In this document: positions 2,005 to 27,370 of the stretch, piece by piece
Numbering within the stretch: the first letter of the stretch is position 1
Layout: every line of letters begins with the position of its first letter
Virus record (IMG/VR): IMGVR_UViG_3300005939_000035
Span: 1-27,370 of that record
Source of the DNA: a virus
Reading direction: 5' to 3' (one strand)
DNA length: 27,370 nt
Notes under the pieces: model-generated
What the model was told of the DNA's origin: nothing
What the model saw: only the letters and a program-made list of their open reading frames with translations
The model's database searches: none
Position numbers and translations under genes: made by a program

Positions 2005-4209
2005 ATGGCACAAAAAGATCGTTTTTTTATAGGACCAATGAATTCAGGTCTGCAAAACGACGTTAAACCATGGCTTCTTCCAGATGATGCATTTTCAAAG
2101 CTCAATAATGCTTATGTTTTTAGGGGTAGTTTAAAAAAGCGGTTTGGATCTTATTTAATTGGTGATGTTGAAAAAGTTGATCCTTTAAGGTCTCGATTGC
2201 GCATTAATCTTGGGAAAACTGATCCAATTACAGGAAATCTCGCCGGGTCCGCTCCAGGTATAAAATATAATATAGGCCAGCAATTCTCTATTGGAACTGA
2301 AGTATTTACGGTAACAACTATTGGCGCTCCTGCTGATATGATTACAACAGGTTCTGCCACCAAGAAAAAATATAATACAACTAATGGTGCCTTTGAGATT
2401 GAAGGCGCTACGGTTGACACTACGTGCTATTTTTATCCAGCCGACCCAGTTATGGGTTTACCAAGTTACGAAGGCACAGCGATCAACTTTGAGCCGCTCT
2501 GGGCATTTGATACACAGTTCGCCTATGAATACATATCTGGTGCTTTTGCTCGATTGGGAACTGCACTTTGGAGTGGAACAGATTCCGATTACTTTTGGCA
2601 TGTTAACTATCGTGGAATAACTCCCTATGATATCTATAGTTTTGTAACAAACTTTGTTGCTGCTGACGGTATTAAGTATTGGAACGGTTTAGTATGGAAC
2701 GTATTAAATCCAAAGACATCTCAAATTATCGCTCCAGCAAAAGTAGAAAATAAACTCGTAACATGTAAGATCATTATTTCATTTAAGAATAGGCTTCTAG
2801 CGCTTAATACGATTGAGAGCATAGACGGATCTAATAAAAACTTTGCAAACAGATGTCGATACTCACAGAATGGTGATCCTTTCGATACCGATGCATGGCA
2901 AGAAATCACTCCTGCCGGAAGAGGCGGATGGATTGATGCGCCGGTTAAAGAGCAAATAGTAAGTGCTCAACTCTTAAGGGATCGCTTAATTGTTTTCTTT
3001 GAGAGAAGCTCGTGGGAACTTGTTTATACCGGTAACCAGATAACTCCATTTGTATGGCAACAAATCAACTCAGAGCTTGGCGTAGAGTCATCTTTCTCCT
3101 CAGTTCCTTTTGATGGAGCTGTTATTGGTATCGGTAATGTTGGTATTCACGCCTGCACGGGCGCAAGTGTCGACAGAATTGATAACTTAATTCCTGATGA
3201 AGTATTTAATATTAAAAATACAGATGGTGCCGTTAACAGGGTTTATGGGATACGTGACTATTTTAGCGAAATGGTTTATTGGACGTTTCCAACTGATGCA
3301 AAGTTTACCAAGAAGATCTTAGCATACAATTATGCAATGAGTTCATGGGCTTTTTTTGATGATTCTTTTACCTGTTTTGGGTATTATCAGCCAACGGAAT
3401 CAAAGACCTGGGAAATAAGTGAACTTAAATGGCTAGAGTATTCAGAGCCGTGGAAAGATCCGCAGTTTAAAGCACAATATAGAACCGTTGCTGCTGGAAA
3501 TCAGCAAGGATTTGTCTCTATATTTAATGTTGGCCTTGAAAGAAATGCTCCAGCATTATCAATAGCAAACATCTCAGGATCAGAAAATGAGTTTGTTGTC
3601 ATAGATCACACGTTAAGTAACGGTGATTATGTATTGGTAGAAAATATTTCTTCCGATTTTGCTTTGTTTGAGATCTTAAATGATAAGATCTTCCAGGTAG
3701 AATTTGTTGATGACGATACAATAAAACTCTTGAATGAAAACGGTTCTTATATAGATATTGGAGCTGGTGATACGTACTTTGGTAAAGGAACGATCTCAAG
3801 AGTTAGCCAGATAGATATTGAAACGAAAGAATATAATTTCTATAGAGAGAAGGGAGCATCTGTTGAAGTGAGCAAGGTTGATTTCTTTGTTGATAAGACA
3901 GCGAAGGGAGAAGTGACCGTTGATTACTTTACCTCAAGTTCCGATATATCTTTAAGAGGTGATAGTGCTGTTTCAAAGTCTATTATGGGTAATGGAACCT
4001 TAGAAACATTTGCGTATCCAACCGTTACGCTTGAAGCATCTCAAACGAGAGTATGGCACCCCGTTTATTTCCAGGCTCATGGAGATGACATTAAGTTAAG
4101 AATATTCTTAACGCCTGCTCAGATGTTCGATCCAGATATAGCGTTATCTCCTTTCCGGCTAAATGCGATGATATTTCACGCAACAACTGGTGGATATAGA
4201 CTTGGCTAG
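2005..4209 (+). CDS. Large tail protein, nozzle/stabilisation-like
   Basis: A 734-residue protein starting 1 bp after the previous stop, with AGGTAG as a possible binding site inside the upstream gene. The N-terminus (GLQNDVKPWLLPDDAF, then LNNAYVFRG and KKRFGSY) resembles the opening of podoviral nozzle or stabilisation proteins (T7 gp12, P22 gp10), where an LP..A/N..Y..G...KR.G pattern is common. Size is close to T7 gp12 (about 790). The body is rich in aromatic beta-strand segments, as expected for a propeller-containing nozzle. There is no membrane segment. Gene order after the adaptor fits. It was not resolved from a generic large tail protein, hence moderate confidence in the role and high confidence in the gene. 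Confidence 0.6.
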   Translation: MAQKDRFFIGPMNSGLQNDVKPWLLPDDAFSKLNNAYVFRGSLKKRFGSYLIGDVEKVDPLRSRLRINLGKTDPITGNLAGSAPGIKYNIGQQFSIGTEVFTVTTIGAPADMITTGSATKKKYNTTNGAFEIEGATVDTTCYFYPADPVMGLPSYEGTAINFEPLWAFDTQFAYEYISGAFARLGTALWSGTDSDYFWHVNYRGITPYDIYSFVTNFVAADGIKYWNGLVWNVLNPKTSQIIAPAKVENKLVTCKIIISFKNRLLALNTIESIDGSNKNFANRCRYSQNGDPFDTDAWQEITPAGRGGWIDAPVKEQIVSAQLLRDRLIVFFERSSWELVYTGNQITPFVWQQINSELGVESSFSSVPFDGAVIGIGNVGIHACTGASVDRIDNLIPDEVFNIKNTDGAVNRVYGIRDYFSEMVYWTFPTDAKFTKKILAYNYAMSSWAFFDDSFTCFGYYQPTESKTWEISELKWLEYSEPWKDPQFKAQYRTVAAGNQQGFVSIFNVGLERNAPALSIANISGSENEFVVIDHTLSNGDYVLVENISSDFALFEILNDKIFQVEFVDDDTIKLLNENGSYIDIGAGDTYFGKGTISRVSQIDIETKEYNFYREKGASVEVSKVDFFVDKTAKGEVTVDYFTSSSDISLRGDSAVSKSIMGNGTLETFAYPTVTLEASQTRVWHPVYFQAHGDDIKLRIFLTPAQMFDPDIALSPFRLNAMIFHATTGGYRLG

Positions 4210-17553: not shown

Positions 17554-18159
17554 TTATGATTTCTTTATAGCCTTTATCTCTCTTATTCTTTTTATTGAAT
17601 TAAGAAATGCAGATTTAGGCATTTGTGATAAACTTTTTAATCCCATTTTTTTTAGAATTTCTTTAGCGAGCTCTAATTCGTTTTTAAGTTCACTTTCCAA
17701 CTGGCCAAGCTGGTCTCTTGAGATAAACGCGTCTACTTCTGGTTGCTCGTCTGGCTGTATTTTTCTGGAGTGAGCCATAGCTCTTTCGCCATCATCATCA
17801 ATCGTTACAACCCCAACCATAGCTGCATAACAGTACCTTTTTAGGTAGGTGATATAGCTGCCATTGCTTTGAATATCGTTTTTTGGTGGAGTTATAGGCA
17901 TTCGACATTTTATCCACTGACCAGAAGAATGCATAATCATTGTTTCAAGGAACTTTACTCCATCTTCAAACTCTGTGCCTTGTAAGACACTAAGCTGATG
18001 ATTTGATAATGCACCGCGAGATGCATTAACTATTTCTGTAAAATTTGCATACTTAGATTTGAAAAATGGATTTGTTTTAGTCTTCTGCGCAACATCCATT
18101 TCACCTTGTGCTTTTGCTAGTGCAGCAGCTATTTCATTGATGCTATCCGACATTAACAT
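17554..18159 (-). CDS. erf: ERF-family single-strand annealing protein
   Basis: A 201-residue minus-strand protein; AAGGAG lies 5-6 bp before ATG 18159 (MLMSD). The N-terminal core has the ERF signature: INEIAAALAKAQGEM, then NPFFKSKYANFTEIVNASRG and LSNHQLSVLQGTEF, then SGQWIKCRMPI and a YITYLKRYCYAAMVGV helix followed by DDDGE, typical of ERF/Sak-type phage recombinases. These proteins form rings on ssDNA and anneal complementary strands during phage recombination and replication. The C-terminal 60 residues are a charged helical tail likely used for SSB or DNA contact. It is the last gene of a three-gene leftward early operon. Confidence 0.85.
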   Translation of the reverse strand: MLMSDSINEIAAALAKAQGEMDVAQKTKTNPFFKSKYANFTEIVNASRGALSNHQLSVLQGTEFEDGVKFLETMIMHSSGQWIKCRMPITPPKNDIQSNGSYITYLKRYCYAAMVGVVTIDDDGERAMAHSRKIQPDEQPEVDAFISRDQLGQLESELKNELELAKEILKKMGLKSLSQMPKSAFLNSIKRIREIKAIKKS

Positions 18160-22940: not shown

Positions 22941-23372
22941 GTGTTGGATCTATTACGTTTTATGAAATTTAAAGATATGGACCATGGTGCTCTTGTTTAT
23001 ACTGTCCCAGGTAAGCCAATTCCACTCGCTAGAGCACGGCACGCGAATGGACATGTCTACGACTCACAAAAACAAGAAAAGGCTGTATACGCCGTTCAGA
23101 TTAAGAAACAACATAACTCCGATATTTTATGGAACGAACCAGTAATCTTAAATGTTATGTTCTATATGAAAATCCCAAAAGCACAATTGAAACAACTCTC
23201 CCAAAAACCACATATTAAACGACCAGATCTTAGCAATCTTATTAAGTTTGTTGAAGATGTATGTACCGGAATAGTATATACAGACGACTCTATAATATCT
23301 GCCTGCTATGCTTATAAGACCTATAGCCTTAACCCAAGGACAGAATTCTTTATCGAACCATGGAGTGAGTGA
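22941..23372 (+). CDS. rusA: RusA-family Holliday junction resolvase
   Basis: About 143 residues. AAGGAG lies before adjacent GTG 22941 and TTG 22944; TTG has the better spacing. The fold signature is present: YTVPGKPIPLARARHANG near the N-terminus, then KRPDLSNLIKFVEDVCTG (about 93-110) and VYTDDSIIS (112-120). RusA enzymes are dimers that cut Holliday junctions using clustered aspartates; here D96, D106 and D115/D116 are visible. The position matching E. coli RusA D72 is Ser98, a variant that also seems to occur in other phage members. The role is resolving branched DNA before packaging. It overlaps or abuts the next gene. Confidence 0.85.
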   Translation: MLDLLRFMKFKDMDHGALVYTVPGKPIPLARARHANGHVYDSQKQEKAVYAVQIKKQHNSDILWNEPVILNVMFYMKIPKAQLKQLSQKPHIKRPDLSNLIKFVEDVCTGIVYTDDSIISACYAYKTYSLNPRTEFFIEPWSE

Positions 23373-24035: not shown

Positions 24036-24066
24036 ACAAAACATTTAGAGTATGTATCGGTAACGC

Positions 24067-24095
24067 TTGACTTGTCTGCGTATGCATGCTATACT
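24067..24095 (+). promoter_or_regulatory. Strong sigma70-type promoter, copy 2
   Basis: TTGACT (24067-24072), 17-bp spacer, TATACT (24090-24095) with TG extension. The sequence from 24066 to about 24122 matches the reverse strand of 19122-19066 with about five differences, and the distance to the start codon is conserved (71 versus 70 bp). Confidence 0.8.
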
Positions 24096-24137
24096 ATAAG
24101 TAGATAAAGAATTTAAATAAAGGCCTGGGACGAAGAG

Positions 24138-24350
24138 ATGAAAGTAATAATAGAGACGCTCGAGACTCTTTCCAAGAAGAAGCTTATAGATGTGACGTAT
24201 GATGAGCTACTTGACCTCTGCGCTCTGCTTGTAGAGAATGATGGTGATTCTGTCTTTGAGGGTATATTGCCCACGTTTATAGAAGAGAAGTATGTGGCTC
24301 TCGCCAACGAGTCTATTAGTGAATGTTATGGCGATGTGTTTGATAGTTAA
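24138..24350 (+). CDS. Truncated paralogue of the early 220-residue protein
   Basis: A 70-residue protein from ATG 24138; only a weak purine-rich site (GAAGAG) precedes it. The sequence IIETLETLSKKKLIDVTYDE, LDLCALLVEN and TFIEEKYVALANESI aligns with the first 75 residues of the minus-strand protein at 18389-19051, and the promoter region is duplicated too. It ends in its own stop with a terminator downstream, so it may be a stable one-domain version rather than a dead fragment. The function of either copy is unknown. Confidence 0.65.
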   Translation: MKVIIETLETLSKKKLIDVTYDELLDLCALLVENDGDSVFEGILPTFIEEKYVALANESISECYGDVFDS

Positions 24351-24484: not shown

Positions 24485-24796
24485 GTGAACGATAAAGAAC
24501 TAGAAGAACTGCAGAGAGAGTTAGATGAGCCTGAAGAGATTAGAGAGGCTAAAGAAAGAAAAGTAAGAGTAGTTACTGAGGGCGCGCTTAGAGGTTATTT
24601 GCGCAGGAATGATGCTGCGAGGTACTTAGGTGTTTCTAATAGCTTATTGAGTAGCTGGGCGAAAAAGGGAAAGATCAAGTCTTATCAACACCCAATAACT
24701 TACCGGGTCATTTATAAAAAGACCGATCTAGAAGAAATTATTGATAATATAAGGCTTATAAACCCTAATAACCCTCGCTTTAGAGGCTCTTTTTAA
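24485..24796 (+). CDS. HTH_17/excisionase-like DNA-binding protein
   Basis: A 103-residue protein from GTG 24485 with AAGGG upstream. A charged N-terminal helix (EELQRELDEPEEIREAKERK) precedes a MerR/excisionase-type winged HTH: LRRNDAARYLGVSNSLLSSW, then AKKGKIKSYQHPITYRVIYK and a DLEEII helix. The pattern A-A-x-x-L-G-V-S...L..W...G.I is typical of HTH_17 proteins. It lies directly before the large terminase gene, where a second small-terminase-like or late regulatory role is possible. A true excisionase is less likely because no integrase is seen. Confidence 0.65.
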   Translation: MNDKELEELQRELDEPEEIREAKERKVRVVTEGALRGYLRRNDAARYLGVSNSLLSSWAKKGKIKSYQHPITYRVIYKKTDLEEIIDNIRLINPNNPRFRGSF

Positions 24797-24995: not shown

Positions 24996-27370
24996 ATGAA
25001 GATTGATACAAAGATATATCTAGACAAATTTAAACCTAGAGACTTCCAGTATCAGCTCTTCGACGCATTTGAGAACAAGAAGATTAGAAAACTCGTCTGT
25101 GTTTGGCCTCGCCGGTGTCTTGCTGGTGATACACAGATCATTATGGCCAACGGCTCATGGAAAGAGTTGAAAGATGTCAGCGTTGGGGACCAGATCCTTT
25201 CGTGGAATGGTGAGGGTTTTGAGCCCGATGTCGTTGAAGACTCATGGAAGACTGAAGAGAAAGAAACCGTTCTAATCAAATCACCTAACGCGTTGCCGTT
25301 AACATCGTCACTAGATCACAAGTTCGCGTACTTAAAGACAACCGGTAAGACTCTCGGTAAGTGTGGAAACAACGAGATCATTGTTAAGTCAGCTGAGTGG
25401 AGCAAGGCTAAAGATGTCCGCTTCAAGCGTGTCTTAACTTACTCTGGATCAGAAGGTAATGTTAACGATCCTGTATTAGCTAAGCAGATGGGAACAGCAA
25501 TCGATGTCCATAAGTCGTTGCCCTCACGCGTTTGGGACTTCGACCGCGAGTCACTCCTCTGTTTTTTGGGAGCAGTTTTCTCTAAGATTGGTTCATTTAA
25601 GTCGGAACTTAAGAAGGATCATTATTGCAGTGGCTTTGAGTTGAAGGGGAGTCTATTCAAGAACTTCATCTTCGATATCTTCTGGGTTTTTAAAAAGTTA
25701 CAGCTCCTGACAAAAAAGCCTGTAGTAAGTGGAGACCTTGTGTGGGTGTTGCGCATTATTGATGAGTCCACCGTAGAATTTTTAGCAGAAAATTTAGACT
25801 TTCAAAACAGTAAAATAACAGAAGCCCTCGCTCCATATATAAGAAGAATGGATGGTTTATTCAAGCCGGTTGTTAAGAAGGTATTCGGATGTATTGCTGC
25901 AAAGCCGGGCAAGCCGGAGAGATCTGGTAGAATGCGGTTGTACGATATAAGAACACGTAAGAATCATAATTTTATAGCTAATGGTTTTGTTGTACACAAT
26001 TCGGGAAAAGATATCTGCGCATTTAATCTTGTCATTAGAGAGGCGCTGAGAACGGTCGGTGTTTACTACTACATCTTCCCGTCTTATTCACAGGCTCGTA
26101 AAGTCATATGGGATTCGTTGACTAATGACGGACAACGTTTCTTAGACTTTATCCCTCCAAAGCTTGTGAGTAAGACTAATAGTCAAGAGATGAAAGTTAC
26201 GTTAGAGAGTGGTTCGCTTATCCAGCTTATCGGTTCGGATAATATAGATTGCTTTGATGAGAAGACAGAGATATTAAGTGAAGACGGTTGGAAGTTGTTT
26301 AAAGATCTATCTAAAGATGAACGTGTTGCAACTCTTGTTGATGGACAACTTAAATATAATGTCCCAACAGAGCATATGGAATATGACTACTCTGGCGATA
26401 TGTATAGAATAAGTAGCAAAAGTATTGATATGTTTGTTACTCCTAACCATAGATTTTATGTGAGATCTTCAAAGGGATTTTATAAGTTTAAGGATATAAG
26501 TGATCCAACTATACGCCATGATAGTATCCCGGCTAAATCTTCATGGAAAGGCGAGGAGCGTGAAACGTTCCACTTCCCTTCTGTAAGTAGAGGATCAGTT
26601 TACTCGAGCAGGGGGCTTGATAAGAGATCTCTTCCAATGGAAGATTTTGTTGCTCTTTTAGGTATATATCTTTCAGAAGGATGCACATTTCAAAACAAGG
26701 AAAACAACCGTATAACTATTACTCAACAAAAGCCTATTAATAAGATTAAGATCGCTAATCTTTTAGTACGATGTAACATAAAGTTTTCCGAAAGAAAGGG
26801 TAACTTTAATTTTAATTGTAGGTTGATGCACTCTTACTTTTCACAGTTTGGCCTACAGCACAAGCGCTATATCCCTAAAGGCATAAAATCATTATCACCA
26901 CGCTATCTTAAGATTCTATTAAATTGGTTGGTTCTTGGTGATGGGTACAAGAATGACAATAATATTGGGTATTATTCAACATCCAAAAGATTGGTAGATG
27001 ATATACAGGAAATTGTGATTAAACTTGGACTTAGTGCTAATATTACTGAGAAAAAACAATCGGTTTCCATGATAAGAGGGCGTGTAGTTAAGCCAACAAA
27101 GATTTTATATGATTTGTTGATTAGAACATCTTGTTTCAAGCGCCTATCTTCAAGTAATAAAAACTACATAAGTAAAGAAAGTTATATAGGGAAAGTTTAT
27201 TGCGTGTCCGTTCCCTCTGGAGTTATAAAAGTTAGAAGAAACGGAAAAGAATGTTGGTCAGGAAATTCCATTGTTGGTTCTAATCCTCGTGGGTGTGTGT
27301 TTTCGGAATATGCTATTCAAGATCCAAGGGCATACCAATTTATTCGTCCTATTTTGGCAGCTAATAAAGG
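24996..27370 (+). CDS. terL: Terminase large subunit containing two inteins, 3'-truncated by window edge
   Basis: The frame is open from ATG 24996 (GGAG 5 bp upstream) to the window end, 791 codons without a stop. Extein 1 (1-40) ends VCVWPRR; extein 2 (336-418) begins SGKDICAFN; extein 3 (758 onward) begins SIVGSNPRGCVFSEYA. Joined, they give the Walker A WPRRSGKD, an ATPase core with FPSYSQARKVIWDS, and Walker B CVFSE, the ATPase of phage DNA-packaging motors. Residues 41-335 and 419-757 are inteins. The nuclease half lies beyond the window. Packaging requires both inteins to splice out. It follows the HTH and small-terminase genes. Confidence 0.93.
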   Translation, partial: MKIDTKIYLDKFKPRDFQYQLFDAFENKKIRKLVCVWPRRCLAGDTQIIMANGSWKELKDVSVGDQILSWNGEGFEPDVVEDSWKTEEKETVLIKSPNALPLTSSLDHKFAYLKTTGKTLGKCGNNEIIVKSAEWSKAKDVRFKRVLTYSGSEGNVNDPVLAKQMGTAIDVHKSLPSRVWDFDRESLLCFLGAVFSKIGSFKSELKKDHYCSGFELKGSLFKNFIFDIFWVFKKLQLLTKKPVVSGDLVWVLRIIDESTVEFLAENLDFQNSKITEALAPYIRRMDGLFKPVVKKVFGCIAAKPGKPERSGRMRLYDIRTRKNHNFIANGFVVHNSGKDICAFNLVIREALRTVGVYYYIFPSYSQARKVIWDSLTNDGQRFLDFIPPKLVSKTNSQEMKVTLESGSLIQLIGSDNIDCFDEKTEILSEDGWKLFKDLSKDERVATLVDGQLKYNVPTEHMEYDYSGDMYRISSKSIDMFVTPNHRFYVRSSKGFYKFKDISDPTIRHDSIPAKSSWKGEERETFHFPSVSRGSVYSSRGLDKRSLPMEDFVALLGIYLSEGCTFQNKENNRITITQQKPINKIKIANLLVRCNIKFSERKGNFNFNCRLMHSYFSQFGLQHKRYIPKGIKSLSPRYLKILLNWLVLGDGYKNDNNIGYYSTSKRLVDDIQEIVIKLGLSANITEKKQSVSMIRGRVVKPTKILYDLLIRTSCFKRLSSSNKNYISKESYIGKVYCVSVPSGVIKVRRNGKECWSGNSIVGSNPRGCVFSEYAIQDPRAYQFIRPILAANK
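25116..26000 (+). other. Intein 1 in terL, inserted in Walker A (295 aa)
   Basis: The intein starts at Cys41 (CLAGDTQIIMANGSWKELKD, SVGDQILSW) and ends IRTRKNHNFIANGFVVHN, with Ser336 as the +1 nucleophile. Block B is present as SSLDHKF. These are textbook splicing blocks A, B, F and G, so a Cys1/His-Asn/Ser+1 mechanism is expected. The middle 140 residues have one LAGLIDADG-like stretch (LLCFLGAVFSKIGSF) in which the catalytic acidic position is Lys or Gly, and no clear second motif, so the endonuclease looks decayed. Insertion is exactly between R and S of WPRR-SGKD. Confidence 0.92.
26250..27266 (+). other. Intein 2 in terL, upstream of Walker B, with LAGLIDADG endonuclease (339 aa)
   Basis: It starts at Cys419 (CFDEKTEILSEDGWKLFKDL) and ends GVIKVRRNGKECWSGN, with Ser758 as +1. 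Block B is FVTPNHRF. The penultimate residue is Gly, not His, as in the WSGN-ending class of inteins. Two endonuclease motifs are visible: FVALLGIYLSEGC (acidic residue Glu561) and LLNWLVLGDGY (Asp649), both with the catalytic acid kept, so homing activity is plausible. The insertion joins GSDNID to SIVGSNPRG. Confidence 0.92.

Follow-up and report, generated by a model that had tools for sequence, protein, structure and literature searches.

What are two long in-frame inserts doing in the ATPase domain of a phage terminase, and are they part of the control of the gene or mobile elements that have invaded it? This question is raised by the last open reading frame of the IMG/VR virus record IMGVR_UViG_3300005939_000035, which we analyzed over its whole length of 27,370 bases (the window). 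An earlier annotation of this DNA (the sequence-only reading) described a gene for the terminase large subunit (TerL) that reads through 791 codons and encodes two inteins, at residues 41-335 and 419-757. Our analysis confirmed that the ORF at 24996-27368 (+), which opens with an ATG at 24996 and is stop-free over its 791 codons, is the start of a TerL gene with two in-frame inteins, here named a and b (Table 1), and that both sets of boundaries are exact, i.e., C...HN followed by S, and C...SGN followed by S. The window TerL protein is incomplete, with the gene cut by the end of the record.

Table 1. Coordinates of the TerL exteins, the two inteins and their motifs in the window
Feature	Residues	Positions	Strand	Remarks
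TerL extein 1	1-40	24996..25115	+	Ends in WPRR of Walker A; aligns with extein of intein-free TerLs
Intein a	41-335 (295 aa)	25116..26000	+	Splits Walker A, RR/SGKD; Cys1, terminal HN, +1 Ser; endonuclease degenerate
Intein a, block B S-L-D-H		25308..25319	+	S/T-x-D-H in relatives; alignment A1
Intein a, second LAGLIDADG remnant FLGAVFSKIG		25563..25592	+	Lacks the acidic residue; region of the first motif deleted; A1 versus L087
Intein a, blocks F/G YDIRTRKNHNFIANGFVVHN		25941..26000	+	intein_Cterm; near-invariant in A1
TerL extein 2	336-418	26001..26249	+	SGKD...GSDNID; 249/249 nt same as L004
Intein b	419-757 (339 aa)	26250..27266	+	Cys1, terminal SGN, +1 Ser; LAGLIDADG endonuclease
Intein b, block B TPNH		26439..26450	+	Alignment A2
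Intein b, LAGLIDADG motif 1 LLGIYLSEG		26655..26681	+	Acidic residue intact; A2
Intein b, LAGLIDADG motif 2 WLVLGDG		26925..26945	+	Acidic residue intact; A2
Intein b, blocks F/G GKVYCVSVPSGVIKVRRNGKECWSGN		27189..27266	+	Penultimate Gly replaces His; A2
TerL extein 3	758-791	27267..27368	+	Holds putative Walker B CVFSE

The exteins belong to a phage terminase. Once joined they form 157 residues, which gave no match in a Pfam search but which match the phrog_2 TerL family in a profile search (2.8e-10), and which match 181 phage records by tblastn, 131 of them over 80% or more of the length at a single place; this is the continuous terminase match predicted for the spliced protein. With the inteins removed, the window TerL aligns gap-free with more than 100 intein-free phage TerLs. 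We looked for misalignment of these insert-free homologues at R40/S336 and D418/S758, and found that they align across both junctions, which agrees with the proposal that removal of the inserts restores the ATPase motifs. Homology, together with Walker A and Walker B motifs that emerge once the inserts are removed, identifies the protein as a phage terminase large subunit. Both inteins were also correctly placed at or near these motifs, intein a within Walker A and intein b 13 residues ahead of the putative Walker B Glu771.

Each insert has its own Cys1, block B, and terminal Asn followed by Ser, as visible in the alignments of intein a (A1) and intein b (A2). Intein a is an in-frame insert in a conserved protein, is missing from homologues, and has the class 1 residues Cys1, block B, C-terminal His-Asn and +1 Ser. 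The profile matches that had been predicted for both inserts were obtained in part. For intein a, NCBIfam intein_Nterm (residues 41-110) and intein_Cterm (residues 316-336) match above their cutoffs, and Pfam Intein_splicing matches residues 57-335 with 34.8 bits, slightly below its cutoff of 35.8. Its predicted structure (pLDDT 69.6) has a Hint fold that resembles the Ssp DnaB mini-intein 1mi8 with a target-normalized TM score of 0.82. A two-motif LAGLIDADG homing endonuclease is no longer present in this intein, whereas the copy in L087 keeps both motifs (LSDG and SGDG) in A1. The same site is also filled in L004, L054, L057, L118, L012 and L073, and no match to intein a was found among annotated phages.

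Intein b presents the reverse picture, with an intact two-motif LAGLIDADG homing endonuclease in which both acidic residues are present. Pfam LAGLIDADG_3 matches residues 645-716 above its cutoff, and intein b alone gives a weak match to intein_Nterm (E 0.009). Over all 339 residues it aligns with an insert annotated as “hypothetical intein” in the thymidylate synthase of Corynebacterium phage P1201 (DQ499600; E 2e-25), a full-length homologue with 26.6% identity that differs in lying in another host gene. The class 1 residues Cys1, TPNH block B, terminal Asn and +1 Ser are present, and the penultimate Gly, in the place of His, is invariant across all intein b alleles in A2. The endonuclease part of the structural model resembles I-DmoI; the model has a pLDDT of 55.9, with the splicing part below 50, so that its matches to inteins are partly endonuclease-driven. 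A profile built from the intein b alignment found no sequence match among solved structures. Intein b also occurs in L083, L086, L084, L085, L121, L136 and L095, the L084 copy being degenerate at the LAGLIDADG motifs (FLGQG and LGDRT in A2). GC3 is 0.30 in intein b, versus 0.46 in intein a and 0.43 in extein 2.

A near-identical gene supplies the empty b site. In the record IMGVR_UViG_3300022855_000171 (L004), intein a is present and intein b is absent exactly at the predicted junction, with GSDNID running directly into SIVGSNPRG, and the exteins are identical to those of the window over 50 nt and 249 nt and match at 103 of 104 nt downstream of b. Since L004 shows the empty b site in DNA, chance is excluded for the intein b insert, and with the profile matches this upholds the claim of two inteins in the window TerL. 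Our scan found no empty site-a allele of the window lineage, in collections that may omit records very near the window. Comparison of intein a between the window and L004 (95.6% amino acid and 96.6% DNA identity) demonstrated that all 30 nucleotide differences fall within window positions 25501-25826, the former endonuclease region, where they form 12 synonymous and 13 nonsynonymous codons, with no differences in the other 559 nt of the intein or in 299 nt of flanking extein. This block suggests a recombined patch.

These comparisons also bear on whether the inserts could be decayed elements that no longer splice, leaving a dead TerL. Loss of the intein a endonuclease and the penultimate Gly of intein b would fit such decay, but no splicing block is damaged, both inserts are read through without a stop, the Gly is shared by every b allele, and intein a is unchanged between the window and L004 in its N- and C-terminal splicing parts while the middle differs at 30 sites; we regard a dead gene as the least credible of the readings weighed here. 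What we consider very probable is an ordinary phage TerL in which two class-1-like inteins, mobile and independent of each other, have settled, and which persist as selfish elements and not as regulators.

Within one near-identical lineage, the inteins come and go separately. The window, L083 and L095 carry intein b, which L004 lacks, and L004 and L095 carry an intein at a third site, c (FVS/TPRGKNH, in the coupling or C-motif), which is empty in L083. The two site c copies, at 1308-2522 of L004 and 186-1400 of L095, have intact LAGLIDADG motifs and are 100% identical. Intein b has moved horizontally: between L083 and L086 it is 93.1% identical in DNA (84% at third positions), versus 76.4% (48%) for the exteins downstream of b. 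Between the window and L083, intein b differs at 1 of 617 nt and the adjoining flank at 4 of 104. In addition, L083 and L004 differ most densely close to site c (16/120 within 60 nt of it, versus 29/867; p 2.6e-5, with the 60-nt window picked post hoc), a pattern that would be a signature of co-conversion, as homing would give. The differences in occupancy, an intein b more alike than its exteins, and the differences gathered around site c together indicate ongoing homing, i.e., the inteins in this TerL lineage appear to be moving now.

Our survey of 151 non-redundant TerL loci, collected by a C-terminus-anchored search together with extein and intein searches, identified five intein sites, of which a is filled in 8 loci, b in 8, c in 4, d in 3 and e in 2, and 122 of the 151 loci are empty at all five. 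Site states for inteins cut by contig ends and for overlapping d/e matches were assigned by reading the sequences. In a few cases a contig ends at an intein site (e.g., the end of the window and the start of L004), and the window gene leaves its record 19 nt short of the position of site c. Sites d (SHF/[CS]DAMRY) and e (QEY[FY]/CSFTxGVEG) are in the nuclease part of TerL, with such nuclease-domain inteins seen in L054, L057, L020 and L026; just upstream of its full TerL, at 3286, L026 also has a second, N-terminal TerL-like ORF of 250 aa.

Double occupancy occurs as a+b in the window, a+c in L004, b+c in L095, L121 and L136, a+d in L054 and L057, and d+e in L020. As the a+b pair is found in the window contig only, it could be a chimera made in assembly, with haplotypes of one intein each fused at the 249-nt extein between the sites, whose sequence is the same whether or not b is present. 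L004 carries a but not b, both L083 and L095 start inside b and so leave site a out of view, and our scan, of collections that may omit records very near the window, found no second contig with the N-terminal junction of intein b. Against this, other pairs do sit together on one contig, as with a+c in L004, b+c in L121, d+e in L020 and a+d in both L054 and L057, so that TerL genes of this clade do carry two inteins at a time, and we judge a chimera unlikely and two inteins in one gene the better account. We also observed that b and c co-occur in 3 of the 4 loci bearing c (Fisher p 0.0006 in the 80-locus C-terminal set, uncorrected for relatedness). We tentatively suggest, at somewhat less than even chances, that this TerL lineage may be an arena for inteins at several sites, where alleles with single, double and perhaps triple (a+b+c) occupancy would be in flux within one phage population, and where b and c co-occur above expectation, so that neighbors would influence each other's homing. 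Neighboring inteins in the archaeal MCM gene interfere with co-homing, and the haloarchaeal MCM inteins a and d are similarly neighbors within a gene in which alleles with just one site filled are common (PMC10643990); MCM, however, is an archaeal helicase whose inteins were tested in vivo, whereas the window inteins are known from sequence alone.

Based on this anatomy, each intein in the precursor would self-splice through its Cys1, Asn and +1 Ser chemistry, so that Walker A and the stretch leading up to Walker B are rebuilt and the ATPase is continuous. Because both inteins fall in or close to ATPase motifs, splicing should have to occur twice before the motor is active, as the sequence-only reading had held for packaging. 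That reading went on to propose a timing, redox or condition switch, in which TerL would stay inactive until both inteins splice on a signal such as redox, and so time late packaging. An unspliced precursor should indeed be inactive, some other inteins are documented to splice conditionally (work cited in PMC7156551), and intein a persists though its endonuclease motifs are lost. The control would not, however, be conserved, as near-identical L004 is without b and related phages are without a or both; five tested TerL inteins spliced readily (PMC5050341), and no condition-sensing feature was identified in the window inteins. A switch accordingly finds no support here and is very unlikely, and since relatives lack one or the other intein and 122 of 151 loci lack any, neither is a required control element. 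Under the invasion by selfish elements that we favor, intein a would be the older resident, immobile with its endonuclease decayed, and intein b a recent arrival whose intact LAGLIDADG endonuclease would cut empty alleles, into which intein b would then be copied by recombination. Both would be selfish elements maintained in a gene that is essential and conserved.

Inteins at such ATPase motifs of TerL are already in the literature, as are TerLs holding a pair of inteins. Kelley et al. (2016; PMC5050341) place all seven of their terminase intein sites in the ATPase domain, among them the P-loop, Walker B and C-motif, and report five mycobacteriophage TerL inteins that splice, readily in a reporter, and two tested that cleave. 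The mycobacteriophage inteins are alike in their P-loop, Walker B and C-motif sites, in some having an active endonuclease and in their patchy distribution; they differ in belonging to another TerL lineage, and the passages used here make no mention of two inteins per TerL. A further difference is that site b of the window lies between Walker A and Walker B. The TerL of cyanophage Mic1 also has two inteins, one with an endonuclease domain, but only one of these is in the ATPase domain, the other being in the nuclease domain, whereas both window inteins are in the ATPase domain (PMC7156551). The TerL of crAss-like phage OBYQ01000140 is split by two inteins into three fragments; that phage uses an alternative genetic code, the window the standard code, and the likeness drawn here is in intein number (PMC7886860). 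The earlier view that two inteins in one ATPase domain are unusual was thus right about the placement at ATPase motifs and overstated the rarity, given these two double TerLs and the P-loop, Walker B and C-motif sites of Kelley et al. No report of two inteins both in a TerL ATPase domain was found in the literature searched, most subscription journals being outside its scope.

The double-intein TerL is therefore itself a modest find, of a kind already known. Its value is in near-identical phages that differ in the intein set of one gene, and in which an exactly empty site, signs of horizontal movement and a decayed neighbor can be seen; together these make a natural intein-mobility system where gain, decay and neighbor effects are directly testable in one phage gene.

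One scan of genome contigs returned a sole match, a Simkaniaceae MAG contig (L172, JAPOVA010000035.1) with a 38% related TerL. Its coverage is 279, whereas a second contig in that bin has 14, which makes a mis-binned virus possible; with this and with a match as weak as 38%, we name no host from it. Elsewhere in the window we observed an Erf-like annealing protein at 17554-18159 (-), a RusA-like resolvase at 22941-23372 and an excisionase/MerR-like protein at 24485-24796. The region at 24065-24349, upstream of TerL, has a 73% match to 1548-1832 of L086, where it is downstream of TerL, which suggests a rearranged or duplicated region of small ORFs.
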